Positions 1-42,215 of a stretch of DNA of 64,000 bases are shown piece after piece. Numbering within the stretch: position 1 is the stretch's first letter; each line of letters opens with the position of its first letter. Source of the stretch: Rhodocyclales bacterium (GTDB lineage Bacteria > Pseudomonadota > Gammaproteobacteria > Burkholderiales > Rhodocyclaceae). The DNA lies in contig JACRLX010000021.1 of NCBI GenBank assembly GCA_016235165.1, positions 1 to 64,000 on the forward strand, written 5' to 3'. A program made the position numbers and the translations under genes. The notes beneath the pieces were generated by a model. It saw only the letters and a program-made list of their open reading frames with translations. It was not told the DNA's origin and made no database searches.

Positions 1-139
1 CGACGCCCAAGGCGCCCAAACCACATCTGATCAGCGGTACACTTTGGCATCGGCGGAACCTCGTTAATTTCGGCTTAGACACCTGTATTAACGCGCCTCA
101 CGGCTGTTCCGCCGACCTCCCCTATGAAATATCCGGGCT
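1..139. other. left-edge spacer, no gene seen
   Basis: I see no convincing coding region, RNA gene or strong promoter here. The stretch runs into the repeat copy at about 140-317. The matching left inverted end of that repeat, present in the copy near 62.7 kb, is not found here, so this copy looks truncated or rearranged on its left side. Confidence 0.5.
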
Positions 140-317
140 AGGAGCCGCAACGCCGCAGCGCGCCCGATTTGACCCGGCCCTGCGGGTTGAGGCCGGACGC
201 GGCGTCTGCGGCGTTGTCGGACTTGGCAAGGGATTACCCTTGCCGGCGTCCTCCGCCTTGCATCCATCCGCGTCTGGCCTCAACGCCATCCGCCGGATGA
301 TTGTGAACACGCCCTAG
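140..317. repeat. partial copy of a structured MITE-like repeat
   Basis: Positions 140-304 match 62812-62976 over 165 bp with two differences that I can find by eye, in the same orientation. The repeat is highly structured. A long stem pairs 186-202 with 268-284 (16 of 17 Watson-Crick plus one G-T). An inner hairpin has arms GGCAAGGG and CCCTTGCC around ATTA, near 225-244. The right end (297-317) resembles the right inverted end of the other copy, with the same first eight and last six bases but a different middle. It ends in CTAG, which supplies the TAG stop codon of ubiA. Confidence 0.8.
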
Positions 318-1201
318 AGCCCCAGCCAGGGCCGCAGGTTGAGTTCGACGACGATGCCGGCGAACACCGCCGCGCCGAACCAGTTGTTGTGGCGGAAGGC
401 CTTGAAACAGCCGTCGCGCTCGCGCTCGCGAATCAGCGTGTAGTGGTAGCCGGCGAGCGCTGCCGCCAAGATCAGGCCGCCGAAGTAGCCAAAGCCGTAG
501 TGCAGGTCCCAGCCGATCACGCCGAGGATGGCCAAGGTGACCGTGTAGCAGCCCATCACGGCGACGACATCGAAGCGGCCGAAGGTGATCGCGGCGGTGC
601 GGATGCCGATCCGGAGGTCATCGTCGCGGTCCACCATGGCGTACTCGGTGTCATAGGCCAGGGCCCAGAAGATGTTGGCGGCCAGCAGGGTCCAGGCCAG
701 GGGACCGATCTCGCCGGTGGCGGCGGCGAAAGCCATCGGAATGCCGAAGCCGAAGGCCACGCCGAGGTAGGCCTGCGGCAGGGCGAAAAAGCGCTTGGTG
801 AAGGGGTAACTGGCGGCGAGGAATAGCGCGACCAGGGTCAGCTTCCAGACCTCGCGCAGGATCGGCACGGCGACGAGGAAGGCGCACAGGCAGAGCACGG
901 CGAAAAGGACCAGCGCCTCGCGCACGCTGACCGTGCCGGCCGCCAGGGGACGGTCCCTGGTGCGTTTGACGTGGGGGTCGAACTCGCGGTCGGCGTAGTC
1001 GTTGATGACGCAGCCGGCCGAGCGCATCAGCAAGGTGCCCAGCGCGAAGGTCCACACCAGCAGAATGTGCGGCTGGCCTTCCGTAGCCAGCCACAGGGCC
1101 CAGAAGGTGGGCCACAGCAGCAGCAGCGTGCCGATCGGCTTGTCCAGCCGCATCAGCTTTTCGTAAAGCGTCAGGCGCTGCTTGAGCTGCTCCAGGGTCA
1201 T
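314..1201 (-). CDS. ubiA: 4-hydroxybenzoate polyprenyltransferase
   Basis: This integral membrane prenyltransferase attaches the polyprenyl tail to 4-hydroxybenzoate in ubiquinone synthesis. The 295-residue length is normal for the family. Both Asp-rich prenyl-diphosphate/Mg motifs are visible: NDYADREFD near residue 67 and DTEYAMVDRDDD near residue 184. Several hydrophobic segments lie between and around them. The gene is transcribed away from the arginase-aminotransferase gene across a short spacer. Its TAG stop falls in the CTAG end of the adjacent repeat, so the last residues may have been set by insertion of that element. Confidence 0.95.
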   Translation of the reverse strand: MTLEQLKQRLTLYEKLMRLDKPIGTLLLLWPTFWALWLATEGQPHILLVWTFALGTLLMRSAGCVINDYADREFDPHVKRTRDRPLAAGTVSVREALVLFAVLCLCAFLVAVPILREVWKLTLVALFLAASYPFTKRFFALPQAYLGVAFGFGIPMAFAAATGEIGPLAWTLLAANIFWALAYDTEYAMVDRDDDLRIGIRTAAITFGRFDVVAVMGCYTVTLAILGVIGWDLHYGFGYFGGLILAAALAGYHYTLIRERERDGCFKAFRHNNWFGAAVFAGIVVELNLRPWLGL

Positions 1202-1281
1202 GGACGAATTTTACCGGGCGCGGACCCGATCGCAATCCCGCCGGCGGCGAACGTCCCGCCGCGAATGCTGTCTATACAGGG

Positions 1282-3417
1282 GTGAAGCCCGGCGAATGGG
1301 AGCTTGTGGTGAAATCCGTGATCTTCCCGCAGCGACGCGCGCTGCGCCTGATAGGCGCGGCCGGTGCCTTCGGCGTGCCGGCGCCGGCGCGTGACGGCAG
1401 CATGGGCGCGGCGGCGGCCCTGGAACGGGCCGATGTCGGCGGCGGCGTGCGCCGCAACGACATCGAGTGCACCTGGGACGGCATCGTCGCGGCACCGGCC
1501 GCAGCCGAGCTGCCGCGCGAGGCGGCCTTGCGCCTGATGTGCGACCAGCTTGCGCAACGGGTTGCAGCCTGCATTGGCGAAGGCGCGCTGCCGGTGGTGC
1601 TCAGCGGCGACCATGCCCTGGCGGTGGGCACTTGGAGCGGCGTGGCGCGCGCGACGGACGCCGCGCCGGGGCTGCTCTGGATCGACGCCCACCTCGATGC
1701 GCATACCTCGCGCACCAGTCCCAGCGGCAATCCCCACGGCATGCCGCTGGCGGCCCTGCTCGGGCGCGAACCGAACCCGTGGCAATGCGGACAGACGGTG
1801 CTCGACGCCAGGCGCTGCGCCGTGTTCGGCGCGCGCAGTTTCGAGGACGCAGAGCTGTTGCTGCTGCGCGAAACCGGCGTCAGCATCGTCGGCATGGCCG
1901 AGATCCGCCGCCGCGGGCTGCAGCAAAGCCTGGACCAGGCACTGTCGCGCGTCGGCGGCGGCAGCTTCGGGCTGTCGATTGACCTCGACGCCATCGATCC
2001 GGGCGATGCCCCGGCGGTCAACACGCCCTGCGCCGGCGGTCTCGACGCGTCGGCGCTGGTCGAGGCCCTGCGCAGCCTGGCGCGCAATCCGAAGCTTGTT
2101 GCGATCGAGATCGCCGAATTCAACCCGGAGCGCGACATCGGCGGCCGCACCGCGCGCCTGATCGCGGCGCTGCTGGAAGCACTGACCGCGCGCACCGGCG
2201 ACGAGTTGCGCGAGATCGAAGAACGCTGCAGCGCACACAACTACGCACCGCTGCCGGTGGTGCTGGCGCGCGGCGCGGGTGTCCATGTCTGGGACACCGC
2301 GGGCAGACGCTACATCGACATGATGTCGGCCTACTCGGCGGCCAGCCTGGGGCACTGTCATCCGCGCCTGGTCGATGCGCTGTCCGCCCAGGCCGGGCGC
2401 CTGGCGGTCACCTCGCGCGCCTATTACAACGACCGCCTGCCGCTGCTGCTGGCGCGCCTGTGCGAGGTCTTCGGCTACGCGGCGGCCTTGCCCGTGAATA
2501 CCGGCCTGGAGGCGGTCGAAACCGCGCTCAAGGCGGCACGCAAGTGGGGCTACCGGGTCAAGGGCGTGGCTGCCGGGCACGCCGCAATCATCGCCTGCCA
2601 GGGCAATTTCCACGGCCGCTCGATCGCCATCGTCGGCATGTCTTCGGAGCCGCAGTACCGCGACGGCTTCGGCCCCTTCGCACCGGGCTTCACGCTGATC
2701 CCCTACGGCGATGCCGACGCCCTTGAGGCGGCGATCACGCCCGACACCGTCGCCTTCCTGGTGGAGCCGGTGCAGGGTGAAGGCGGCATCATCGTGCCGC
2801 CCGCGGGCTACCTGCGTCGCTGCGCCGAGATCTGCCGCCACCACCGGGTGCTGCTGATCTGCGACGAGGTGCAGACCGGGCTTGGCCGCACCGGCAAGCT
2901 GCTGGCCTCCTGGCACGAGGACGTGCGGCCCGACGGCGTGATCCTGGGCAAGGCGCTGGGCGGTGGCCTGCTGCCGGTGTCGGCCTTCCTCGCCGACCGC
3001 GAAGTGATGGACGTGTTCACGCCCGGCGACCATGGCAGCACCTTTGGCGGCAATGCGCTGGCCGCCGCCGTTGCGCTGGTGGCGCTGGACCTGATCGTCG
3101 AACTCGACCTCGCGGCGCACTCCGCCCGGCTCGGCGAGCACCTGCTGGCGCGGCTGCGCCGGATTCGCCACCCGGCGATACGCGCAGTGCGCGGGCGCGG
3201 GCTGTTTGCCGGCATCGAACTCGACCCGCGCCTGGCCGATGCGCACACGGCCTGCCTGCGCCTGCTGGACGCCGGCGTGCTGAGCAAGGACACCCACGGC
3301 ACGGTGGTCCGCCTGGCGCCGCCGCTGATCATCGAGCGTGCCCAGCTCGACGAGGCGATCGATCGCATCGAGGCGGCGCTGCGGCGCCTGCCCACCACCC
3401 GGATGCGAGCGGCATGA
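1282..3417 (+). CDS. fused arginase / ornithine aminotransferase
   Basis: Two complete enzymes appear in one 711-residue chain. Residues about 1-300 are a ureohydrolase with arginase-type metal and substrate motifs: SGDHA, DAHLDAH, SGNPHGMP, SIDLDAIDP and EFNPERD. The SGNxHGMP element is characteristic of arginase rather than agmatinase. From about residue 305 there is a class-III PLP aminotransferase of the ornithine aminotransferase type, with DEVQTGLGRTG and the PLP lysine in GKALGGG. Predicted reactions are arginine to ornithine plus urea, then ornithine to glutamate-5-semialdehyde. The track start is GTG 1282; GTG 1309, preceded by GGGAG, has the better ribosome site. The gene overlaps the next by ATGA. 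Not seen: any stop or frameshift between the halves, so the fusion looks real. Confidence 0.9.
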   Translation: MKPGEWELVVKSVIFPQRRALRLIGAAGAFGVPAPARDGSMGAAAALERADVGGGVRRNDIECTWDGIVAAPAAAELPREAALRLMCDQLAQRVAACIGEGALPVVLSGDHALAVGTWSGVARATDAAPGLLWIDAHLDAHTSRTSPSGNPHGMPLAALLGREPNPWQCGQTVLDARRCAVFGARSFEDAELLLLRETGVSIVGMAEIRRRGLQQSLDQALSRVGGGSFGLSIDLDAIDPGDAPAVNTPCAGGLDASALVEALRSLARNPKLVAIEIAEFNPERDIGGRTARLIAALLEALTARTGDELREIEERCSAHNYAPLPVVLARGAGVHVWDTAGRRYIDMMSAYSAASLGHCHPRLVDALSAQAGRLAVTSRAYYNDRLPLLLARLCEVFGYAAALPVNTGLEAVETALKAARKWGYRVKGVAAGHAAIIACQGNFHGRSIAIVGMSSEPQYRDGFGPFAPGFTLIPYGDADALEAAITPDTVAFLVEPVQGEGGIIVPPAGYLRRCAEICRHHRVLLICDEVQTGLGRTGKLLASWHEDVRPDGVILGKALGGGLLPVSAFLADREVMDVFTPGDHGSTFGGNALAAAVALVALDLIVELDLAAHSARLGEHLLARLRRIRHPAIRAVRGRGLFAGIELDPRLADAHTACLRLLDAGVLSKDTHGTVVRLAPPLIIERAQLDEAIDRIEAALRRLPTTRMRAA

Positions 3418-4937
3418 GACACCCTGTGGGCTCCGCCGTAGAACGCGAGACCCTGGCGCGGCTCGGCATCCTCGATGCGATCTGCGGTGCGGACCAGGGT
3501 TTCGCCTCGGAAAACCCGGCCACGGGAAAGGTGCTCGCACACGTTCGCCGTGCCACCGGCGCCGACTTTCAGGCGGCGCTCGACGCCGCCCGGGCCGCCT
3601 TCCCGCGCTGGCGCGACGTGCCGGCGCCGCGGCGTGGCGCCATGGTGCGCGCGCTTGGCGAGGCGCTGCGGCGGCACAAGGATGCACTGGGCACGCTGAT
3701 TGCGCTGGAGACCGGCAAGATCAAGGCCGAAGGCGACGGCGAAGTGCAGGAGATGATCGACATCGCCGATTTCGCGGTCGGCCTCTCGCGCCAGCTCTAC
3801 GGCCGCACCATGGCCTCGGAGCGGCTGCGCCACCGGATGTACGAGCAGTGGCTGCCGCTGGGCCCGGTCGGGGTGATCACGGCGTTCAACTTTCCGGCCG
3901 CGGTCTGGGCCTGGAACGCGCTGATTGCCGCGGTCTGCGGCGACAGCGTGGTCTGGAAGCCCAGCCCGAAGGCACCCCTGACGGCACTGGCGGTGCACCG
4001 CCTGGCCTGCGCCGCGGCGCAACAACACGATGCCGATGGCATCTTCGGCCTGCTGCTGGCCGACGGCCAGGAAACGGGCCGCGCCATGGTCGCCGATGCG
4101 CGCCTGCCGCTGATCTCCTTCACCGGCTCCTCGGCGGTCGGCCGCGACGTGGCGCAGGCGGTGGCCGGCCGCTTCGGCCGCTGCCTGCTCGAATGCTCGG
4201 GCAACAACGCGGTGATCGTCGACGAGACCGCCGACCTCGATCTGGCGCTGCGTGCGATCCTCTTCGGCGCGGTCGGCACCGCCGGCCAGCGCTGCACCAC
4301 GACGCGGCGCCTGCTGCTGCAGGAAACAGTGTACGACGAGTTCGTCGCGCGCCTGGTCGCGGCCTACGGGGAAGTCTGCGTCGGCGATCCGCTGCTTGCC
4401 AGCACTCTGATGGGACCGCTGATAGACGAGGCGGCGCGCAGCGCCTTCGTCGCCGCGGTGGCCGAGGCCGAAGCCTGCGGTGGCCAGGTGCTCTACGGCG
4501 GCCGCCTGCTCGCCGGCCCCGGCTGGTTCGTGCGCCCCACCCTGGTGGCCGCCGAGAACCACTGGCCGGTGGTGCAGCGCGAAACCTTCGCGCCCATACT
4601 TTACGTCATGCGCTGGCGCGACTTCGGCACCGCGCTGGCGCTCAACAACGCCGTGCCGCAGGGCCTTTCGTCGGCGCTGTTCAGCCGCGACCTGCGCCGC
4701 GCCGAAGCCTTTCTCGCCGCCGCCGGCAGCGACTGCGGCATCGCCAACCTCAACCTCGGCACCTCGGGCGCCGAGATCGGCGGCGCCTTCGGCGGCGAAA
4801 AGGACAGCGGCGGCGGCCGCGAGGCCGGTTCGGATGCCTGGCGCGCCTACATGCGGCGGCAGACCGTGACCATCAATTGGGGGGCGGATCTGCCGCTTGC
4901 CCAGGGCATCGAATTCTTGCCTCGGAGCGAATCGTGA
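3414..4937 (+). CDS. ALDH7-family semialdehyde dehydrogenase
   Basis: This 507-residue NAD(P)-dependent aldehyde dehydrogenase is of the antiquitin (ALDH7) type. The catalytic Cys lies in GTAGQRCTTTRR and the general-base Glu in LECSGNN. The family-typical C-terminal block with GGAFGGEKDSGGGRE and SDAWRAYMRR is present. Known ALDH7 enzymes oxidise alpha-aminoadipate semialdehyde. The start overlaps the stop of the arginase/ornithine aminotransferase gene (ATGA), so it is probably translationally coupled. I infer that it finishes the route by oxidising glutamate-5-semialdehyde to glutamate. A lysine-catabolic role is the alternative. Confidence 0.85.
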   Translation: MRHPVGSAVERETLARLGILDAICGADQGFASENPATGKVLAHVRRATGADFQAALDAARAAFPRWRDVPAPRRGAMVRALGEALRRHKDALGTLIALETGKIKAEGDGEVQEMIDIADFAVGLSRQLYGRTMASERLRHRMYEQWLPLGPVGVITAFNFPAAVWAWNALIAAVCGDSVVWKPSPKAPLTALAVHRLACAAAQQHDADGIFGLLLADGQETGRAMVADARLPLISFTGSSAVGRDVAQAVAGRFGRCLLECSGNNAVIVDETADLDLALRAILFGAVGTAGQRCTTTRRLLLQETVYDEFVARLVAAYGEVCVGDPLLASTLMGPLIDEAARSAFVAAVAEAEACGGQVLYGGRLLAGPGWFVRPTLVAAENHWPVVQRETFAPILYVMRWRDFGTALALNNAVPQGLSSALFSRDLRRAEAFLAAAGSDCGIANLNLGTSGAEIGGAFGGEKDSGGGREAGSDAWRAYMRRQTVTINWGADLPLAQGIEFLPRSES

Positions 4938-5033
4938 ACAATATTTGAAAAAAACGATCATAGCTATCAACATCGGAGGGCGAATCGCCGTTTAAGCAGT
5001 TAACAACCCCGCACCCACAGAGAGGAGGCGTCC

Positions 5034-6956
5034 ATGTCCATCTTCGACCGCTACCAGGGCCGCTACGAAGCCGCGCAGGAAGAAGACATGTCGGTACAGG
5101 AGTACCTGGAACTGTGCCGCAACCAACCGGCTGCCTATGTCAGCGTCGCCGAGCGCATGCTGGCGGCGATCGGCGAACCGGAATTGGTGGATACGCGGCT
5201 CGATCCGCGCCTGTCGCGCATCTTTGCCAACAAGATCATCAAGATCTACCCGGCCTTCCGCGACTTCTACGGCATGGAAGAGGTGATCGAGAACATCGTC
5301 GCCTACATCCGCCACGCGGCCCAGGGCCTGGAGGAAAAGAAGCAGATCCTCTACCTGCTGGGGCCGGTCGGCGGTGGCAAGTCCTCGCTGGCCGAGAAAC
5401 TCAAGTCCCTGATCGAGAAAGAGGCTTTCTACGCGATCAAGGGCTCGCCGGTGCATGAATCGCCGCTGGGCCTGTTCAAGCCCGAGGAGGACGGCCCGAT
5501 CCTGGAAGAGGATTTCGGCATTCCGCGGCGCTATCTCAACACCATCATGTCGCCCTGGGCCGTCAAGCGCCTGCACGAATTCAACGGCGACATCACCAAG
5601 TTCCGCGTGGTCAAGCTGCGGCCCTCGGTGCTGCGCCAGATTGCCGTGTCGAAGACTGAGCCCGGCGACGAGAACAACCAGGACATTTCCTCGCTGGTGG
5701 GCAAGATCGACATCCGCAAGCTCGAGGAATATTCGCAGAACGACCCTGACGCCTACAGCTATTCGGGCGGCCTGTGCCTGGCCAATCGCGGCCTGCTCGA
5801 ATTCGTCGAAATGTTCAAGGCGCCGATCAAGGTGCTTCATCCGTTGCTGACGGCGACCCAGGAGGCCAACTACAAGGGCACCGAGGGCTTCGGCGCGATT
5901 CCCTTCGACGGCATGATCCTCGCCCACTCCAACGAGGCGGAGTGGATGGCATTCAAGAACAATCGCAACAACGAGGCCTTCCTCGACCGCATCTACATCG
6001 TCAAGGTGCCTTACTGCCTGCGGGTTTCCGAGGAAATGAAGATCTACGAGAAGCTGCTGGCCAACTCCTCGCTGTCCAAGGCGCCCTGCGCGCCGGATAC
6101 GCTGCTGATGATGGCGCAGTTCTCCGTGCTGTCGCGCCTCAAGGAGCCGGAGAACTCGGCGATCTACTCGAAGATGCGCGTCTATGACGGCGAGAACCTC
6201 AAGGACACCGATCCCAAGGCCAAGTCCTACCAGGAATACCGCGACTACGCCGGTGTCGACGAAGGCATGACCGGGTTGTCCACCCGCTTCGCCTTCAAGA
6301 TCCTGTCCAAGGTGTTCAACTTCGATCACCGCGAAGTGGCCGCCAATCCGGTGCACCTGATGTACGTGCTGGAACAGCAGATCGAGCAGGAGCAGTTCGC
6401 GCCCGAGCTGGAGCAGCGCTACCTTGGCTTCATCAAGGAATTCCTCGCCCCGCGCTACGCCGAATTCATCGGCAAGGAAATCCAGACCGCCTACCTCGAA
6501 TCGTATTCGGAGTACGGCCAGAACATCTTCGACCGCTACGTCACCTATGCCGACTTCTGGATCCAGGACCAGGAATTCCGCGATCCGAACACCGGCGAGA
6601 TCCTCGATCGCAGCGCCCTCAACGACGAGTTGGAGAAAATCGAAAAGCCGGCCGGCATCAGCAATCCGAAGGACTTCCGCAACGAGGTGGTGAATTTCGT
6701 GCTGCGCGCCCGGGCCAAGAACGACGGCATGAATCCGGCCTGGACGTCCTACGAGAAGCTGCGCGCGGTGATCGAGAAGAAGATGTTCTCCAACACCGAG
6801 GAACTGCTGCCGGTGATCTCCTTCAACAGCAAGGCCAGCGCCGACGACCAGCGCAAGCACCAGGATTTCGTCAACCGCATGAAGGCCAAGGGCTACACCG
6901 AGAAACAGGTGCGGCTGCTGGCCGAATGGTATTTGCGCGTGCGCAAGTCGTCGTGA
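5034..6956 (+). CDS. prkA: PrkA-type serine protein kinase (YeaG)
   Basis: The product has 640 residues, the normal size for PrkA/YeaG. An AAA+-like P-loop, GPVGGGKS, lies at about residues 110-117, and the conserved C-terminal PrkA kinase region follows. It is a cytoplasmic Ser/Thr kinase, linked in other bacteria to stationary-phase, nitrogen-starvation and stress responses. A strong ribosome site (GAGGAGG, 5022-5028) precedes ATG 5034. It is first in a prkA-yeaH-spoVR unit, the conserved arrangement of these three families. Confidence 0.95.
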   Translation: MSIFDRYQGRYEAAQEEDMSVQEYLELCRNQPAAYVSVAERMLAAIGEPELVDTRLDPRLSRIFANKIIKIYPAFRDFYGMEEVIENIVAYIRHAAQGLEEKKQILYLLGPVGGGKSSLAEKLKSLIEKEAFYAIKGSPVHESPLGLFKPEEDGPILEEDFGIPRRYLNTIMSPWAVKRLHEFNGDITKFRVVKLRPSVLRQIAVSKTEPGDENNQDISSLVGKIDIRKLEEYSQNDPDAYSYSGGLCLANRGLLEFVEMFKAPIKVLHPLLTATQEANYKGTEGFGAIPFDGMILAHSNEAEWMAFKNNRNNEAFLDRIYIVKVPYCLRVSEEMKIYEKLLANSSLSKAPCAPDTLLMMAQFSVLSRLKEPENSAIYSKMRVYDGENLKDTDPKAKSYQEYRDYAGVDEGMTGLSTRFAFKILSKVFNFDHREVAANPVHLMYVLEQQIEQEQFAPELEQRYLGFIKEFLAPRYAEFIGKEIQTAYLESYSEYGQNIFDRYVTYADFWIQDQEFRDPNTGEILDRSALNDELEKIEKPAGISNPKDFRNEVVNFVLRARAKNDGMNPAWTSYEKLRAVIEKKMFSNTEELLPVISFNSKASADDQRKHQDFVNRMKAKGYTEKQVRLLAEWYLRVRKSS

Positions 6957-7010
6957 GCTGATTCCACCGCGCCGCCGCACGCGGCGCGGGTTCGTGCGAA
7001 AGGGAGCGGC

Positions 7011-8276
7011 ATGCTGCAAATCATCGACCGGCGCAACGACAGCAAGAACAAGAGCGCCGTCAACCGCAACCGCTTCATCCGGCGCTTCAAGGGCCAGATC
7101 AGGAAGGCGGTGCAGGACGCCATCGCCCGGCGCAGGATCGCCGACATCGACAATGGCGAGAAGGTCGGCATCCCGGCCAATGACATTTCGGAGCCGCAGT
7201 TCCGTCACGGCCGCGGCGGGCGCTGGAGCGTGGTGCAGCCGGGCAATGACCGCTACCTGACGGGCGACGAGATCGAGCGCCCCGAGGAGGGCGCGGGCGG
7301 CCAGGGCGGCGGCGCCAGCCCCGAGGGCGAGGGCCTCGACGACTTCGTGTTCACCCTGTCGCGCGAGGAATTCCTCGACATCTTCTTCGACGACCTGGCG
7401 CTGCCGCACCTGGTCAAGACCCAGCTCGCGCGCATCGACGAATACAAGCGCGTGCGCGCCGGCTACACCTCGACCGGGGTGCCGGCCAACATCAACGTCG
7501 TGCGCTCCCTGCGCGGTGCTACCGGGCGCCGCCTGGCGGCGGGCGGCCCCTACCGCAAGACCCTGCGCACGCTCCACGCCGAACTTGCCGAGCTGGAGCG
7601 GCAGGGCGCCGGCGACAGCCCGCGCGCGGCGGAATTGCGCGCCGAAATCGCGCGCCTGCTGCGCCGCATCGAGGGCCTGCCCTTCATCGACACCTTCGAC
7701 CTGCGCTACAACAGCCGCATCCGCATTCCGGCGCCGACGACCCAGGCAGTGATGTTCTGCGTCATGGATGTCTCGGGCTCGATGGACCACCAGAAGAAGC
7801 AGATCGCCAAGCGCTTCTTCATGCTGCTCTACCTGTTCCTGACGCGGACCTACCAGCATATCGAGATCGTCTTCATCCGCCACCACACCCAGGCCATGGA
7901 AGTCGACGAGGACGACTTCTTCCGCTCGCGCGAAACCGGCGGCACCGTGGTGTCCTCCGCCCTGGAGTTGATGCTGCGCATCGTGCGCCAGCGCTATGCC
8001 TCGACCGCCTGGAACATCTACTGTGCCCAGGCCTCCGACGGCGACAACTGGGACGCCGATTCGCCCAAGTGCCGCGAGTTCCTCGAATCCAGCATCGTGC
8101 CCCTGGTCCAGTACTACGCCTACATCGAGATCTCCGAGGGCGAGCCGCAGAACCTGTGGCGCGAATACGCCCGGGTTCTGGCAAACCACCCGCAGCGTTT
8201 CGCCATGCGGCAGATCGGCGGTCCGGCGGACATCTATCCGGTGTTCCGCGAGCTGTTCCGCAAGAGCCTGGCATGA
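7011..8276 (+). CDS. yeaH: YeaH/YhbH family protein (DUF444)
   Basis: The product has 421 residues. A Gly/Glu-rich linker near residues 92-108 precedes the C-terminal half, which contains a von Willebrand A-like domain with the metal-adhesion motif DVSGSMD at about 253-259. The family almost always accompanies PrkA and SpoVR and is required with them for stress phenotypes, but its biochemical activity is unknown. It begins 54 bases after prkA, behind a GGGAG-type ribosome site, and is followed 7 bases later by spoVR. Confidence 0.93.
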   Translation: MLQIIDRRNDSKNKSAVNRNRFIRRFKGQIRKAVQDAIARRRIADIDNGEKVGIPANDISEPQFRHGRGGRWSVVQPGNDRYLTGDEIERPEEGAGGQGGGASPEGEGLDDFVFTLSREEFLDIFFDDLALPHLVKTQLARIDEYKRVRAGYTSTGVPANINVVRSLRGATGRRLAAGGPYRKTLRTLHAELAELERQGAGDSPRAAELRAEIARLLRRIEGLPFIDTFDLRYNSRIRIPAPTTQAVMFCVMDVSGSMDHQKKQIAKRFFMLLYLFLTRTYQHIEIVFIRHHTQAMEVDEDDFFRSRETGGTVVSSALELMLRIVRQRYASTAWNIYCAQASDGDNWDADSPKCREFLESSIVPLVQYYAYIEISEGEPQNLWREYARVLANHPQRFAMRQIGGPADIYPVFRELFRKSLA

Positions 8277-8283
8277 GTGCGGC

Positions 8284-9801
8284 ATGAGCGACGCCCCGCC
8301 CCCCCTGCCGAGCGGTTCCGAATGGACCTTCGAGGCCATCGAGACCTACGACCGCGAGATCGGCCGCGTCGCCGCCGACTACGGCCTCGATGTCTACCGC
8401 CACCAGCTGGAGATCATCACCGCCGAACAGATGATGGACGCTTACGCCTCGATCGGCATGCCGGTGTTCTACCACCACTGGTCCTTCGGCAAGCATTTCC
8501 TCAGCACCGAGAAGAGCTACAAGCGAGGGCAGATGGGCCTGGCCTACGAGATCGTGATCAATTCCGACCCCTGCATCGTGTACCTGATGGAAGAAAACAC
8601 CATGCCGATGCAGGCGCTGGTGATCGCCCACGCCGCCTACGGCCACAATTCCTTCTTCAAGGGCAACTACCTGTTCCGCACCTGGACCTCGGCCGAGGCG
8701 ATCATCGATTACCTGGTGTTCGCACGCAATGTCATCGCCGAATGCGAGGAGCGCTACGGCGAGGACGAGGTCGAGCAGTTGCTGGACGCCTGCCATGCGC
8801 TGATGAGCGTCGGCGTGGACCGCTACAAGCGGCCTCCGAAACTTTCCCTGACCAAGGAGCGCGAACGGCGCAAGGAACGCGAAGACTACCTGCAGTCACA
8901 GGTCAATGACCTCTGGCGCACCCTGCCGCTGAGCCCGGAAAAGGAAGCTGAGGAAGCGGAACGGCGCTTTCCCGAGGAAGCCGAGGAAAACCTGCTCTAC
9001 TTCATCGAGAAGAACGCGCCGCTGCTGGAGCCCTGGCAACGCGAAATCGTGCGCATCGTGCGCAAGATCGGGCAGTACTTCTATCCGCAGCGCCAGACCC
9101 AGCTGATGAACGAGGGCTGGGCCTGCTTCTGGCATTACACCATGCTCTATCACCTGTACGACCGCGGCCGGCTAGGCGAGGGCTTCATGCTCGAATTCCT
9201 CCAGCACCACACCAACGTCGTCTACCAGCCGCCCTTCAACAGCCGGCGCTTTTCCGGCATCAATCCCTATGCGCTGGGTTTCGCCATGTGGCGCGACATC
9301 CAGCGCATTTGCCGCGATCCGACCGCCGAGGATCGCGACTGGTTTCCCGACCTGGCAGGCAGCGACTGGCGCGAGGCGCTGGATTTCGCCATGCGCAACT
9401 TCAAGGACGAGAGCTTCATCGCCCAGTACCTGTCGCCGCGGCTGATGCGTGAATTCAGGCTGTTCAACATCCTCGACGATCCCGCGGAACCGATGCTGCG
9501 CGTGCGCGCGATACACGACGAGCAGGGCTACCGCCGGCTCCGGCAGGCGCTCGCCGAACAGTACAACCTGGGCAGCCGCGAGCCTGACATCCAGGTATGG
9601 AACGTCGACCTGCGTGGCGAGCGTTCCCTGACCTTGCGCCATTTCAAGTACCAGGGACGCGACCTCGGCGAATCGCGCGATGCCGTACTCAGGCACGTCG
9701 CCAGTCTCTGGGGCTTTCCGGTGAAGCTCGAAGAACAAGACGAGGACGGCGCCGTCAGGCTGCTGACCGAGGTCAAGATCGACCGCCGCAGGAACCGCTA
9801 G
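8284..9801 (+). CDS. spoVR: SpoVR family protein (YcgB)
   Basis: The product has 505 residues from ATG 8284. The reading frame is open further upstream, but that part overlaps yeaH and does not resemble the family. The N-terminus (WTFEAIETYDREIGRVAADYG) and the His-rich NEGWACFWHYTM segment are typical of SpoVR. Third member of the prkA-yeaH-spoVR stress unit, molecular function unknown. It ends 22 bases from the convergent recG stop. Confidence 0.95.
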   Translation: MSDAPPPLPSGSEWTFEAIETYDREIGRVAADYGLDVYRHQLEIITAEQMMDAYASIGMPVFYHHWSFGKHFLSTEKSYKRGQMGLAYEIVINSDPCIVYLMEENTMPMQALVIAHAAYGHNSFFKGNYLFRTWTSAEAIIDYLVFARNVIAECEERYGEDEVEQLLDACHALMSVGVDRYKRPPKLSLTKERERRKEREDYLQSQVNDLWRTLPLSPEKEAEEAERRFPEEAEENLLYFIEKNAPLLEPWQREIVRIVRKIGQYFYPQRQTQLMNEGWACFWHYTMLYHLYDRGRLGEGFMLEFLQHHTNVVYQPPFNSRRFSGINPYALGFAMWRDIQRICRDPTAEDRDWFPDLAGSDWREALDFAMRNFKDESFIAQYLSPRLMREFRLFNILDDPAEPMLRVRAIHDEQGYRRLRQALAEQYNLGSREPDIQVWNVDLRGERSLTLRHFKYQGRDLGESRDAVLRHVASLWGFPVKLEEQDEDGAVRLLTEVKIDRRRNR

Positions 9802-9823
9802 CCTGCATTCGGCAGCGGCGCGA

Positions 9824-11851
9824 TCACGCCTTGAGCAATTCCTCGCGCCCGCCCAGCCAGCGTTTGAGGTGGGCGTCGGCGCGATCGGGATCGCTGAGCA
9901 GCATGTCCTCGGCGATGGCACGCGCCTGATCCACGAGCACGGTGTCCTCCAGATCGGCATAGCGCAGCAGCGGCATGCCGCTCTGGCGTGCGCCGATGAA
10001 TTCGCCGGGGCCGCGCAGACGCAGGTCTTCGCGCGCAATGGCGAAGCCGTCCGCGGTTTCGTAGATCACCTTGAGCCGTGCCCGCGCCGTTTCGCCCAGC
10101 GGCCGGGCGTAGATCAGGATGCAGGCCGATTGCGCCGCGCCACGCCCGACGCGGCCGCGCAGCTGGTGGAGCTGGGCGAGGCCGAAGCGTTCCGCATGCT
10201 CGATCACCATCAGGCTGGCGTTGGGCACGTCGACACCGACTTCGATCACCGTGGTCGCCACCAGCACCTGGATCTCGCTGGCGACGAAGGCGGCCATTAC
10301 CGCCGCCTTCTCGGCCGCCTTGAGCCGGCCGTGCACCAGGCCTACCTTGAGGTCGGGCAGGTCGGCGGCAAGCCGGGCGAAGGTTTCTTCGGCCGTCTTG
10401 AGTTGCAGCGACTCGCTCTCGTCGATCAGCGGGCAGACCCAGTAGGCCTGGCGCCCGGCGCGGCAGGCGTCGTACACGCGTTTCAGCACCTCGTCGCGAC
10501 GGCCTTCGGCGACCAGCTTGGTGGTCACCGGGCTGCGTCCCGGCGGCAGCTCATCGAGCACCGAGACATCGAGGTCGGCGTAATAGCTCATGGCCAGGGT
10601 GCGCGGGATGGGGGTGGCCGACATCGCCAGCTGGTGGGCGAACTGGCCCTTGTCCTTGAGCGCCAGGCGCTGGCGCACGCCGAAGCGGTGCTGCTCGTCG
10701 ACGATGGCGAGGCCAAGGCGCGCGAACTCGACCTTGTCCTCGATCAGGGCATGGGTGCCGATCGCGATCGGCGTCTCGCCAGCGCCGACTTTTGCGATGG
10801 CGGCGTCCTTGTCCTTCTTCTTCAGGCTGCCGGAAAGCCAGGCGACTTCGACGCCCAGCGGGGCGAGCCAGGCGGCAAGCTTGCGGTAGTGCTGTTCAGC
10901 AAGGATCTCGGTCGGCGCCATCAGCGCCGCCTGGTGGCCGGCCTCGACCGCGTGCAACATGGCCAGCGCGGCGACGATGGTCTTGCCGCTGCCGACATCG
11001 CCCTGCAACAGGCGCTGCATCGGGTGCGGCTGCGCGAGGTCGGCGGCGATCTCGCGCCAGGCGCGGTGCTGTGCGCCGGTAAGGCGGAAGGGCAATGATT
11101 TGAGCAGGGCATCGGTCAGCCTGGCCGTCGCCTTGAGCGGCGGCGCCCCGCGCGCGCGGCGGGCGAGGTAAGCGCGGCGCAGGCTCAGTTGCTGCGCCAG
11201 CAGTTCGTCGAACTGCATGCGGCGCCAGGCCGGAAAATCGCGTGATTCCAGCGCGGCCTGCGAGATTTCGGGCGGTGGCGCATGCAGAAAGCGCAGCGCC
11301 GCACCGAACTCCGGCAGATCCAGCCGTTGCAACAATTCCGCGGGCAGCGTGTCGCTGAACTCGTAGCGCGCCAGCGCCTTGTCGATAAGGCGGCGCAGCG
11401 TCGCCTGACCGAGCCCGGCGGTGGTCGGATACACCGGCGTCAGCCCCTCGGGCAGCCCCTCGCCGGCCGCCACCGGATGAAAGCGCGGATGGATGATTTC
11501 CGGCCCGAGAAAACCGTGGTTGATCTCGCCGAACACGCGCAGCCGTGCGCCGGCTTGCAGGACTTTCTGCTGGCTGGGATAGAAGTTGAGGAAGCGCAGC
11601 GCGACGGCGCCGCTGGCATCGCGCACCCGCGCTATCAGCTGGCGACGCGGACGGTAGGCGATCTCGCTATCCACCACCTCGACCTCGAATTGCGCGGCGA
11701 TGCCGGGGCGGGCATCGGCCAGCGCGGTGATGCGGGTCTCGTCCTCGTAGCGCAGCGGCAGGTGGAGGACGAAATCAGCGTCGGTCTTGAGGCCCAGCCG
11801 CGCCAGCCGGCCGGCCAGACTATTGGCGGCGGGCGCCCCGGGCTCAGCCAA
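9824..11851 (-). CDS. recG: ATP-dependent DNA helicase RecG
   Basis: This 675-residue superfamily-2 helicase reverses stalled forks and migrates branched DNA. Residues about 1-160 form the wedge/OB region. Walker A (GDVGSGKT) is at about 284-291, DEQH at about 385-388, and the C-terminal helicase motifs include RGRVGRG. The start overlaps the ridA stop by 8 bp. Residues 354-360 (KVGAGET) are encoded by an exact copy of the 16-mer repeat. They lie before the conserved IGTHALI, where RecG proteins I recall are about three residues shorter. Confidence 0.96.
10777..10792 (-). repeat. 16-mer repeat copy inside recG
   Basis: Exact copy of AAAGTCGGCGCTGGCG on the recG coding strand, read in frame as Lys-Val-Gly-Ala-Gly. 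The same word in the same frame occurs in bioF at 42590. Three more exact copies lie in spacers. Confidence 0.8.
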
Positions 11852-12224
11852 GGACCAGAACGGCGTCGGCCTCGACCAGGGCGCCGCGCGGCAATTCCTT
11901 GACCCCCACCGCGGCGCGCGCCGGGAAGGGCTGGCTGAAGTACTTCGCCATGGTCTCGTTGACCTTGGCGAAATTCGCCAGGTCGGTGAGGTAGATGTTG
12001 AGCTTCACTGCATCGTTGAGCGTGGCGCCGGCCGCCTCGGCCACCGCCTTGAGGTTCTCGAAGACGCGCAGGATCTGGGCGTCGATGCCCTCGACCAGGG
12101 TCATGGTCGCCGGGTCGAGGCCGATCTGGCCCGACATATATACGGTGTCGCCGACCTGCACGGCCTGCGAATAGGTACCTATCGCGGCGGGGGCGGCGGT
12201 GGTGGAAATGATCTTGCGGCTCAT
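11844..12224 (-). CDS. ridA: RidA family enamine/imine deaminase
   Basis: This small cytoplasmic trimeric protein of 126 residues hydrolyses reactive 2-aminoacrylate-type enamines made by PLP enzymes. The family signature is intact: [10 protein letters not shown] near the N-terminus and [22 protein letters not shown], with the substrate-binding Arg and the acidic residue, near the C-terminus. It sits between the SPOR protein and recG. Co-transcription with metY, a PLP enzyme upstream, fits its detoxifying role. Confidence 0.95.
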
Positions 12225-40198: not shown

Positions 40199-40870
40199 TC
40201 AGGCTCCGAGCAGCGCAGCCAGTCGGGCGACGCCGGGCGCGGGATCGGCGCGCCGGACGCCGACCAGCGGAATGCCCGCCACATGGCGCAGCAGGCTGTC
40301 CAGCGTCAGTTCGATCGGCACCGGCGAGCCCCCGCTTTCATTGACCACGATGGCGGCGACCGGTGCATCGGCGCGGACCAGGGATTCCAGCGCCGTCAGC
40401 GTATGACTCATGCTGCCCAGATAGGAGCCCGCCACCAGCACCGCCGGCAGGCCGCTGGCGGCGACCCAGTCGCGCACCGTGTGGATCTGGTCCAGCGGCA
40501 CCATGACACCGCCGACGCCCTCCACCAGCAGGGGGCCGGGGCCGGCGAGGGCGGCACGGCGCGTAAAGGCGACCAGTGCATCAAAGGGCACCTGCCGGCG
40601 CTCCTGCGCTGCCGCCATGTCAGGCGAAAGCGCCGCCGCATAACGCCAGGGCGCGATCGCCTCCAGGGTGCGCTCATCGACAGCCTGATCCAGCGCGGCA
40701 AGCAGTTGGCCGGCATCGCTGGCCTCCGGCGCGTCGGGGTCGAAGCCGGAGAGCACCGGCTTGAGTGCGGCCGGACGCAGCCCCGCCGCCCGCCAATGGC
40801 GCAACAGGGCGCAGCAAAGCCAGGTCTTGCCGATGTCGGTGCCGGTGCCGGTGATAAAATTCGCGCCCAT
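40199..40870 (-). CDS. bioD: dethiobiotin synthetase
   Basis: The product has 223 residues from ATG 40870, preceded by GGGGGAA. It closes the ureido ring of biotin with ATP and CO2. The P-loop GTGTDIGKTW is at residues 7-16 and LVEGVGGVMVPL is typical. The gene diverges from bioA over a 52-bp spacer (40871-40922), which must hold both starts of transcription. Confidence 0.95.
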   Translation of the reverse strand: MGANFITGTGTDIGKTWLCCALLRHWRAAGLRPAALKPVLSGFDPDAPEASDAGQLLAALDQAVDERTLEAIAPWRYAAALSPDMAAAQERRQVPFDALVAFTRRAALAGPGPLLVEGVGGVMVPLDQIHTVRDWVAASGLPAVLVAGSYLGSMSHTLTALESLVRADAPVAAIVVNESGGSPVPIELTLDSLLRHVAGIPLVGVRRADPAPGVARLAALLGA

Positions 40871-40922
40871 GTTTCCCCCGTTGCGCCGCGATTCTAGCGG
40901 CCCTCCGGCCATTGCCCATCCC

Positions 40923-42215
40923 ATGTCCGACTGGCTGACCCCGGGCCTCGCCCACCTCTGGCTGCCGTATACCCAGATGCAGACCGCGCCGCCACCGCTG
41001 CCGGTCGTCGCCAGTCATGGCGTGCGCCTGCAACTGGCCGACGGCCGCGAACTGATCGATGGCATCTCCTCGTGGTGGACCGCCTGCCACGGCTACAACC
41101 ATCCCCACATCCGCGCCGCCGTCGAAGCCCAGCTGGCGCGGCTGCCCCACGTCATGTTCGCCGGCCTGGTGCATGAGCCCGCGGCACGGCTGGCGGCGCG
41201 CCTGGCGGCCTTGCTGCCGGGCGACCTGGAACGCGTGTTTTTTACCGAATCCGGCTCGGTCTCGGTCGAAGTAGCGCTGAAAATGGCGCTCCAGTATTGG
41301 CGCAACCGTGGCCAGGCGGAGAAAAAGCGCATTGTGTATTTCCGCCATGGCTACCACGGCGACACTTTCGCCACCATGGCCCTGTGCGACCCGGAAGAAG
41401 GCATGCACACGCTGTTTGCCGGGGCCATGCCGGACCAGATCATGGCCGAGCTGCCTGATACGCCGGCCATGGCGGCGGCCTTCAATCGCGTGCTCGCCAC
41501 CCATGCCGAGCACATCGCAGCGGTGATCGTCGAACCTCTGGTGCAAGGCGCCGGCGGCATGCACATGCACGATGCCGCCACCCTGCGCGCCATCGCCGAG
41601 GCCTGCCACCGACACGAGTTGCTGCTGATCGCCGACGAAATCATGACCGGCTTCGGCCGCAGCGGGCGGATGTTCGCCTGCGACGAGGCAGGTGTCGTAC
41701 CCGACATCGTCTGCCTGTCGAAGGCATTGACCGGCGGCACCCTGCCGCTGGCCGCCACCGTGGCGCGGCGCCACGTGTTCGAGGCCTTCCTGGCCGACGA
41801 CACTGGCGCGGCGCTGATGCATGGCCCGACCTACATGGCCAACCCGCTGGCCTGCGCCGCCGCCAATGCTTCGCTCGACCTGTTCGAGCCCGGTCAAAAT
41901 TCGCCGCGACTCGAACAGGTGGCGGCGATCGAAAGCGCTTTGCGCGCCGAGCTCGAACCCTGCCGCGCCATCGCCGGCGTGGCCGAGGTACGCGTCAAGG
42001 GTGCCATCGGCGCCGTGGAGCTCAGTTGCCAACCCGGCGGAAACATCGACCTCGACGGCCTGCGCCGGCGTTTCGCCGAACTCGGGGTCTGGGTGCGGCC
42101 CTTCGGCAAGGTGGTGTACCTGATGCCGCCCTTCGTCATCGGAAGCGACGACCTGTCCCTGCTGACCGGCGCCGTACGCCGGGTCCTGACGGAACGCGCG
42201 GCCAGCCTGCCGTGA
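40923..42215 (+). CDS. bioA: adenosylmethionine-8-amino-7-oxononanoate aminotransferase
   Basis: The product has 430 residues from ATG 40923. This class-III PLP aminotransferase makes diaminopelargonate using S-adenosylmethionine as amino donor. LWLPYTQM and SSWWTACHGYNHP at the N-terminus, ADEIMTGFGRSG and the PLP lysine in LSKALTGGTLPLA identify BioA. It overlaps bioF by GTGA. Confidence 0.96.
   Translation: MSDWLTPGLAHLWLPYTQMQTAPPPLPVVASHGVRLQLADGRELIDGISSWWTACHGYNHPHIRAAVEAQLARLPHVMFAGLVHEPAARLAARLAALLPGDLERVFFTESGSVSVEVALKMALQYWRNRGQAEKKRIVYFRHGYHGDTFATMALCDPEEGMHTLFAGAMPDQIMAELPDTPAMAAAFNRVLATHAEHIAAVIVEPLVQGAGGMHMHDAATLRAIAEACHRHELLLIADEIMTGFGRSGRMFACDEAGVVPDIVCLSKALTGGTLPLAATVARRHVFEAFLADDTGAALMHGPTYMANPLACAAANASLDLFEPGQNSPRLEQVAAIESALRAELEPCRAIAGVAEVRVKGAIGAVELSCQPGGNIDLDGLRRRFAELGVWVRPFGKVVYLMPPFVIGSDDLSLLTGAVRRVLTERAASLP

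Follow-up and report, generated by a model that had tools for sequence, protein, structure and literature searches.

The two-gene arginase pathway comprised of RocF and RocD carries out the same two reactions, those of arginase and ornithine aminotransferase (OAT), that we expect of one gene near the start of a 64,000-nucleotide stretch of DNA from a Rhodocyclales bacterium (assembly GCA_016235165.1, contig JACRLX010000021.1; the whole stretch is henceforth the window). Unlike RocF and RocD, the window version is one polypeptide, and its arginase domain belongs to a subfamily with the motif DAHxD[AS]H and scores below the cut-off of the curated arginase family TIGR01229. Separate, adjacent arginase>OAT genes of the RocF/RocD kind (annotated as rocF and rocD on Rhizobium and Skermanella plasmids) account for 28 of 110 OAT loci, the others being fused genes (14), the order OAT>arginase (3), and OATs without a detected arginase (65), where short flanks may conceal one; this count includes duplicates and, like all genome and locus counts given here, is inflated by kinship. 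PutA and RocA catalyze the same last step that we expect of the gene immediately downstream in the window, and a PutA-type gene lies directly upstream of the fusion in 5 of 58 fetched loci, none of which has both dehydrogenases. Unlike PutA, the window dehydrogenase is a member of the ALDH7 family, about 31% identical to the aldehyde dehydrogenase domain of the PutA of its own genome. It shares its family, its catalytic residues, and what we take to be its pocket residues with the L-piperidine-6-carboxylate (P6C) dehydrogenases (antiquitin, AmaB, Pcd). Unlike the lysine-linked ALDH7 proteins, it is coupled to an arginase-OAT gene with no lysine dehydrogenase beside it; a lysine-linked pair, lysdh SPO0234 and aasadh SPO0235, is reported from Ruegeria pomeroyi (excerpted text of PMC4334477), and in engineered Escherichia coli a lysine dehydrogenase and an aminoadipate semialdehyde (AASA) dehydrogenase together yield aminoadipate (excerpted text of PMC9437556). 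The parts of the window locus are:

1282..3417, + strand: fused arginase-fold/OAT gene, 711 aa, GTG start (start codon provisional)
1525..2181, + strand: arginase-family domain, Pfam PF00491 match, residues 83-300, 174.6 bits
2182..2241, + strand: interdomain junction of clade-wide constant length, with modelled helices at residues 286-301 and 306-316
2203..3381, + strand: OAT domain, TIGR01885 match, residues 308-700, with the pyridoxal phosphate (PLP) lysine K557
3414..4937, + strand: ALDH7-type dehydrogenase gene, 507 aa, catalytic C294, general base E260
3414..3417, + strand: ATGA overlap of the fusion stop (3415-3417) with the ALDH7 ATG (3414-3416)

We propose that these two genes probably specify an arginine-to-glutamate route, wherein the N-terminal domain of the fusion would hydrolyze arginine, releasing ornithine and urea, its C-terminal domain would convert ornithine and 2-oxoglutarate to glutamate 5-semialdehyde, and the co-directional ALDH7, a member of a fusion-linked clade, would oxidize this semialdehyde to glutamate, using NAD. 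The last step would instead fall to the PutA-type gene beside the fusion in some related genera. The same three-step route had been advanced by the original prediction from the window alone. Its first part, i.e., a chain with predicted arginase and OAT activities that together would yield glutamate semialdehyde, has good support, with residues, families, and relatives in agreement; the ALDH7 step draws its support from gene order, with pocket residues that are unchanged.

The fusion with its downstream ALDH7-type gene is real and no assembly error, because the frame is open over the junction in all 59 family genomes with a fusion and the junction length is constant. These 59, the window genome counted, are the genomes with a match at E <= 1e-120 among 199 from the same family. 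Their rows are stop-free in 57 cases; in G290 a TAA is the first aligned codon of the match and the frame over the junction is open, and the G413 frame runs open from 5' of the arginase domain through the OAT end, so that its TGA sits at the end of the match (the rows of G436, G377, and G350 are clipped by contig ends). Within the window, the open reading frame 1282..3417 contains no internal stops across 711 codons and carries the Pfam Arginase and Aminotran_3 domains (the latter at residues 317-700, 379.9 bits) in the same frame, just as the original prediction had held; neither a frameshift nor a stop codon around residue 300, which it had named as refuting, was found, and the same fused frame recurs at 77% identity in two Sulfuritalea and one further Rhodocyclales assembly (L034-L036), as well as in other genomes of the family. 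In these three assemblies the fusion is likewise followed by ALDH7 and prkA. The ATGA overlap, also part of that prediction, is present in the window and is not conserved, since in the same three assemblies the ALDH open frame begins 3' of the fusion stop; in the window the overlapping genes are probably co-transcribed. In 70 of the 71 aligned rows, some of which represent the same genome twice, 30 residues separate the last arginase helix from an AHNY motif, the exception being L042. An AlphaFold2 model of the fusion, built on 56 fused sequences (55 rows and the window, from a 64-row set that left out L042, L213, L245, L255, L256, and L257), has a mean pLDDT of 89.1, a pTM of 0.84, and a helical junction.

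The arginase domain of the window retains the metal ligands H111, D135, H137, D139, D234, and D236, along with H152 and E279, at what we take to be the Mn-ligand and catalytic His positions of canonical arginases. All six ligand positions are intact in 66 of 71 fused rows, with the exceptions being L253-L256 and the truncated L245. The domain scores 155.7 bits against TIGR01229, below its cut-off of 227.6, and this is still its best family; thus, the completeness claimed for it holds for the ligands and the family, and falls short at the curated threshold. Its likeness to other fused proteins begins upstream of the PF00491 match, and an arginase gene search of the window genome recovered the fused domain as the only arginase-family gene. 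The subfamily is distinguished by DAHxD[AS]H instead of DAHxDxN, with the histidine found in 44 of 45 OAT-adjacent or OAT-fused arginase rows (39 of the 45 being distinct), and by a glutamate at the D183 position in all 45. Accordingly, the residues presumed to contact the substrate in canonical arginases, N130 and D183, are replaced in the window by H141 and E188. The linkage to OAT throughout this subfamily argues for ornithine as its product.

The OAT domain scores 512.9 bits against TIGR01885, above the cut-off of 378.4, and its best solved-structure matches are OATs, as are the best structural matches of the fusion model (human OAT, 1oat: 49% identity, root-mean-square deviation 1.4). By alignment, the PLP lysine and the ornithine-binding residues are present in the window domain. 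Using the human OAT numbering and roles as we presume them to be, the positions aligned to Y55, Y85, R180, E235, and D263 are kept in all 71 fused rows and those of K292, T322, and R413 in every fused row that reaches them. The window has a second class-III aminotransferase at 40761-42215, which is of the BioA type (594.5 bits, cut-off 494).

The dehydrogenase is best matched among NCBI families by the P6C dehydrogenase family NF050084 at 729.1 bits, 0.9 short of the cut-off of 730, so that the ALDH7-type label given to it earlier agrees with its nearest family and narrowly misses the formal threshold. Its PDB matches in the antiquitin/AASA-dehydrogenase group score 488-613 bits as against 216 for the next aldehyde dehydrogenase, and it reaches 219.7 bits against the glutamate-5-semialdehyde dehydrogenase family TIGR01237, below the cut-off of 659.65. 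An ALDH7 gene lies directly downstream of the fusion in 15 of 59 genomes from nine genera (the window and 14 of the 58 fetched loci). This recurrent pairing in related genera suggests that ALDH7 finishes arginine breakdown, a role supported by the conserved gene order and by the PutA-type gene that stands beside the fusion in other genera. One such PutA-type protein (L205), scanned whole, displays PutA_N, Pro_dh, and Aldedh domains with TIGR01237 as its best family, below cut-off; the remaining four upstream genes fall in one cluster with it (the aldehyde dehydrogenase part was scanned for G389, G295, and G405).

An ALDH7 tree of 80 rows places 18 fusion-adjacent rows and three from genus g250 together as one side of a branch (Shimodaira-Hasegawa-like approximate likelihood ratio test, SH-aLRT, 97), with the 18 other sampled ALDH7 proteins of the family outside this fusion-linked group; the family genomes with a non-adjacent ALDH7 number 37, of which 20 were fetched and G462 was also considered, the other 16 being absent from the tree. 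Whereas 11 of the 34 other ALDH7 genomes in the family have a lysine-dehydrogenase-like gene, none of the 18 genomes of the fusion-linked clade does (Fisher p 0.0095, with kinship not removed and a twelfth match, of 29% identity, excluded). By their coordinates all 11 are directly beside the ALDH7 gene, and seven of the 11 are represented in the ALDH7 tree. These genes are saccharopine-dehydrogenase-like by Pfam, with a PDB match to 3abi, which we take to be a lysine dehydrogenase. Of the 274 class genomes, the 39 with OAT (E <= 1e-118) include 23 with ALDH7 and the 235 others include 22, and this co-occurrence holds among the Pro_dh-positive genomes (23/37 vs 18/86).

Several observations weigh against assigning the last step to ALDH7. 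The above co-occurrence is to be read with caution, as kinship makes the genomes non-independent and as ALDH7 and OAT each accompany amino-acid breakdown generally. Neither dehydrogenase is beside the fusion in 39 of the 58 fetched loci. PutA is encoded elsewhere in the window genome, and Pro_dh is present in all 23 class genomes having both OAT and ALDH7; therefore, ALDH7 is not the sole candidate for the final reaction. We had also considered whether a lack of PutA might signal a need for ALDH7, which proved uninformative as Pro_dh occurs in 37 of the 39 OAT genomes. The catalytic cysteine, the general-base glutamate, and the positions that we take to form the AASA-binding pocket are present and identical in both ALDH7 clades; hence, the pocket gives no pointer to a five-carbon substrate, and a search among its residues for proof of a changed substrate found none. 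The residues that mark the clades, at positions 118, 236, 261, and 262, do not track the presence of OAT in the class. All 52 family genomes with ALDH7 have one match each (E <= 1e-130), which implies that one clade stands in for the other and that a single function could be common to both. Furthermore, in 12 alphaproteobacterial loci (L095-L113, mostly Methylocystis) ALDH7 stands divergently next to an OAT for which no arginase was detected, and this ALDH7 groups with the other clade of the family rather than the fusion-linked one, so that clade does not map to function simply; in G028 (L031/L134) ALDH7 is divergent beside an arginase>OAT pair. Finally, Arabidopsis ALDH7B4 prefers AASA over the five-carbon semialdehyde, on which it is about 60 times slower (excerpted text of PMC11018352), in keeping with the earlier remark that use of the latter would be unusual for this family.

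These points feed an alternative that we consider unlikely, though worth serious attention, viz., that ALDH7 is an ordinary AASA (P6C) dehydrogenase of lysine breakdown lodged in the same amino-acid operon, with PutA finishing the arginine route. The best family of the window ALDH, its unchanged presumptive pocket, the PutA of the window genome, and the single ALDH7 per genome all fit such a division of labor. The absence of a lysine-dehydrogenase-like gene from the fusion-linked clade, the window genome included, speaks against it, but a close one is likewise lacking from 23 of the 34 other ALDH7 genomes. Also counting against it, no HglS gene was found in the window genome, other lysine routes being outside that search, and in other genera a PutA-type gene adjoins this fusion.

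We regard as improbable a second alternative, in which the pair serves five- and six-carbon homologs alike, with the OAT domain also acting on lysine (or lysine derived from homoarginine) and ALDH7 on both AASA and glutamate semialdehyde. In its favor, ALDH7B4 accepts both semialdehydes, at very different rates (excerpted text of PMC11018352), and the window carries the H141 and E188 substitutions at the presumed N130 and D183 positions. Against it, these two changes are common to 44 and 45, respectively, of the 45 OAT-linked rows, and the OAT-specific residues are kept.

The fused arginase domain has decayed in one genus (g270; L253-L256 from G443, G467, G413, and G377), where H101, H126, and D234 are lost in all four genomes and D128 in three, E277 is replaced by R in all four, and the active-site loop is altered, despite which the OAT domain of these fusions is intact. 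The decayed domain is still moderately conserved. Between proteins with OAT identities of 85-89% its own identity is 65-67%, compared with 74.9% (standard deviation [sd] 4.6) in the 22 other pairs whose OAT identities are 85-90%. Where OAT identities are 93-95% it is 83-88%, compared with 84.8% (sd 6.3) in 11 pairs of the 90-95% range. All four g270 genomes have a second arginase-family gene (292.4 bits against the arginase cut-off of 227.6 in the one scanned, G377), suggesting a relaxed need for the fused domain. Several genomes, G340, G388, and G326 among them, combine such a second gene with an intact fused domain; therefore, ligand decay does not follow automatically. That the fused N-terminal domain is mainly a scaffold or regulator rather than an arginase, as its retention in g270 without most metal ligands might imply, is very improbable given the six intact ligands in 66 of 71 rows and the second arginase-family gene, above cut-off where scanned, that suggests a relaxed need in those four genomes. 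Returning to the two-gene route from arginine to glutamate, we tentatively advance a stronger version, which in our estimation falls just short of the probable: the fusion-linked ALDH7 clade may be a true glutamate-5-semialdehyde dehydrogenase born inside the lysine-semialdehyde family, completing a three-step module on a bifunctional scaffold whose arginase domain can, where another arginase exists, lose its catalytic residues and stay structural.

The distribution of the fusion is patchy. In five genomes of the same genus as the window (G274, G342, G390, G424, and G454), neither the fusion (E <= 1e-120) nor ALDH7 (E <= 1e-130) was found, which may mean either that the genes were acquired by transfer or that they were lost more than once. 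A tree of 100 OAT domains, prepared by dropping nine duplicate rows and one short one, groups 12 betaproteobacterial fusions with G061 (SH-aLRT 91). We rejected G061 (L012) itself as a fusion, its arginase and OAT being overlapping genes in different frames. A second, independent fusion in Coxiellaceae (L042, L006), which is positioned apart from the betaproteobacterial fusions in the OAT tree, was also rejected because two N bases lie inside its linker (L042 6752-6753), making the frame over it unreliable. In five class genomes (G271, G201, G189, G050, and G063) a single in-frame stop divides arginase from OAT; thus, fusion by loss of one stop would be easy. As for what might have favored it, the original prediction had raised direct transfer of ornithine between active sites; a fixed 1:1 dosage would suffice as an advantage, and channelling would not be needed.

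Downstream of the ALDH7 gene, the window continues with a further group of genes:

5034..9801, + strand: prkA, yeaH (DUF444), and spoVR, 3' of the ALDH7 gene

Among the 58 fetched relatives, 14 have prkA 3' of the fusion or of the fusion-ALDH7 pair. Ubiquinone genes also accompany the fusion: on its other side the window has ubiA (314-1201), and the gene clusters recurring around the fusion in 61 loci include UbiB (20) and UbiU (11), besides a sodium:solute symporter (21). One member of each cluster was scanned, and the underlying maps come from a crude open reading frame picker that misplaces some genes, and are used for recurrent neighbors only. A sigma-54 promoter was considered and rejected, since the window has 19 matches where shuffled sequences have a mean of 33, and none lies before 1282; no RNA family reached its gathering threshold in positions 1-12000.

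Taken together, this is a known pathway in a new arrangement: the fusion is established in one bacterial family, and context assigns its ALDH7 to glutamate semialdehyde, while annotation by nearest family would assign it to lysine breakdown. No paper describing an arginase-OAT fusion was among the matches listed in the open-access literature, subscription journals and preprints being outside the scope of that search. With both enzymes on a single chain, the arginase-OAT protein offers a natural case for asking whether joining successive enzymes confers channelling or no more than a fixed dosage. Moreover, the two ALDH7 clades within one family, one linked to arginase-OAT and the other often to a lysine-dehydrogenase-like gene, furnish a clean comparison pair, suited to asking whether and how an aldehyde dehydrogenase shifts from a six- to a five-carbon semialdehyde.

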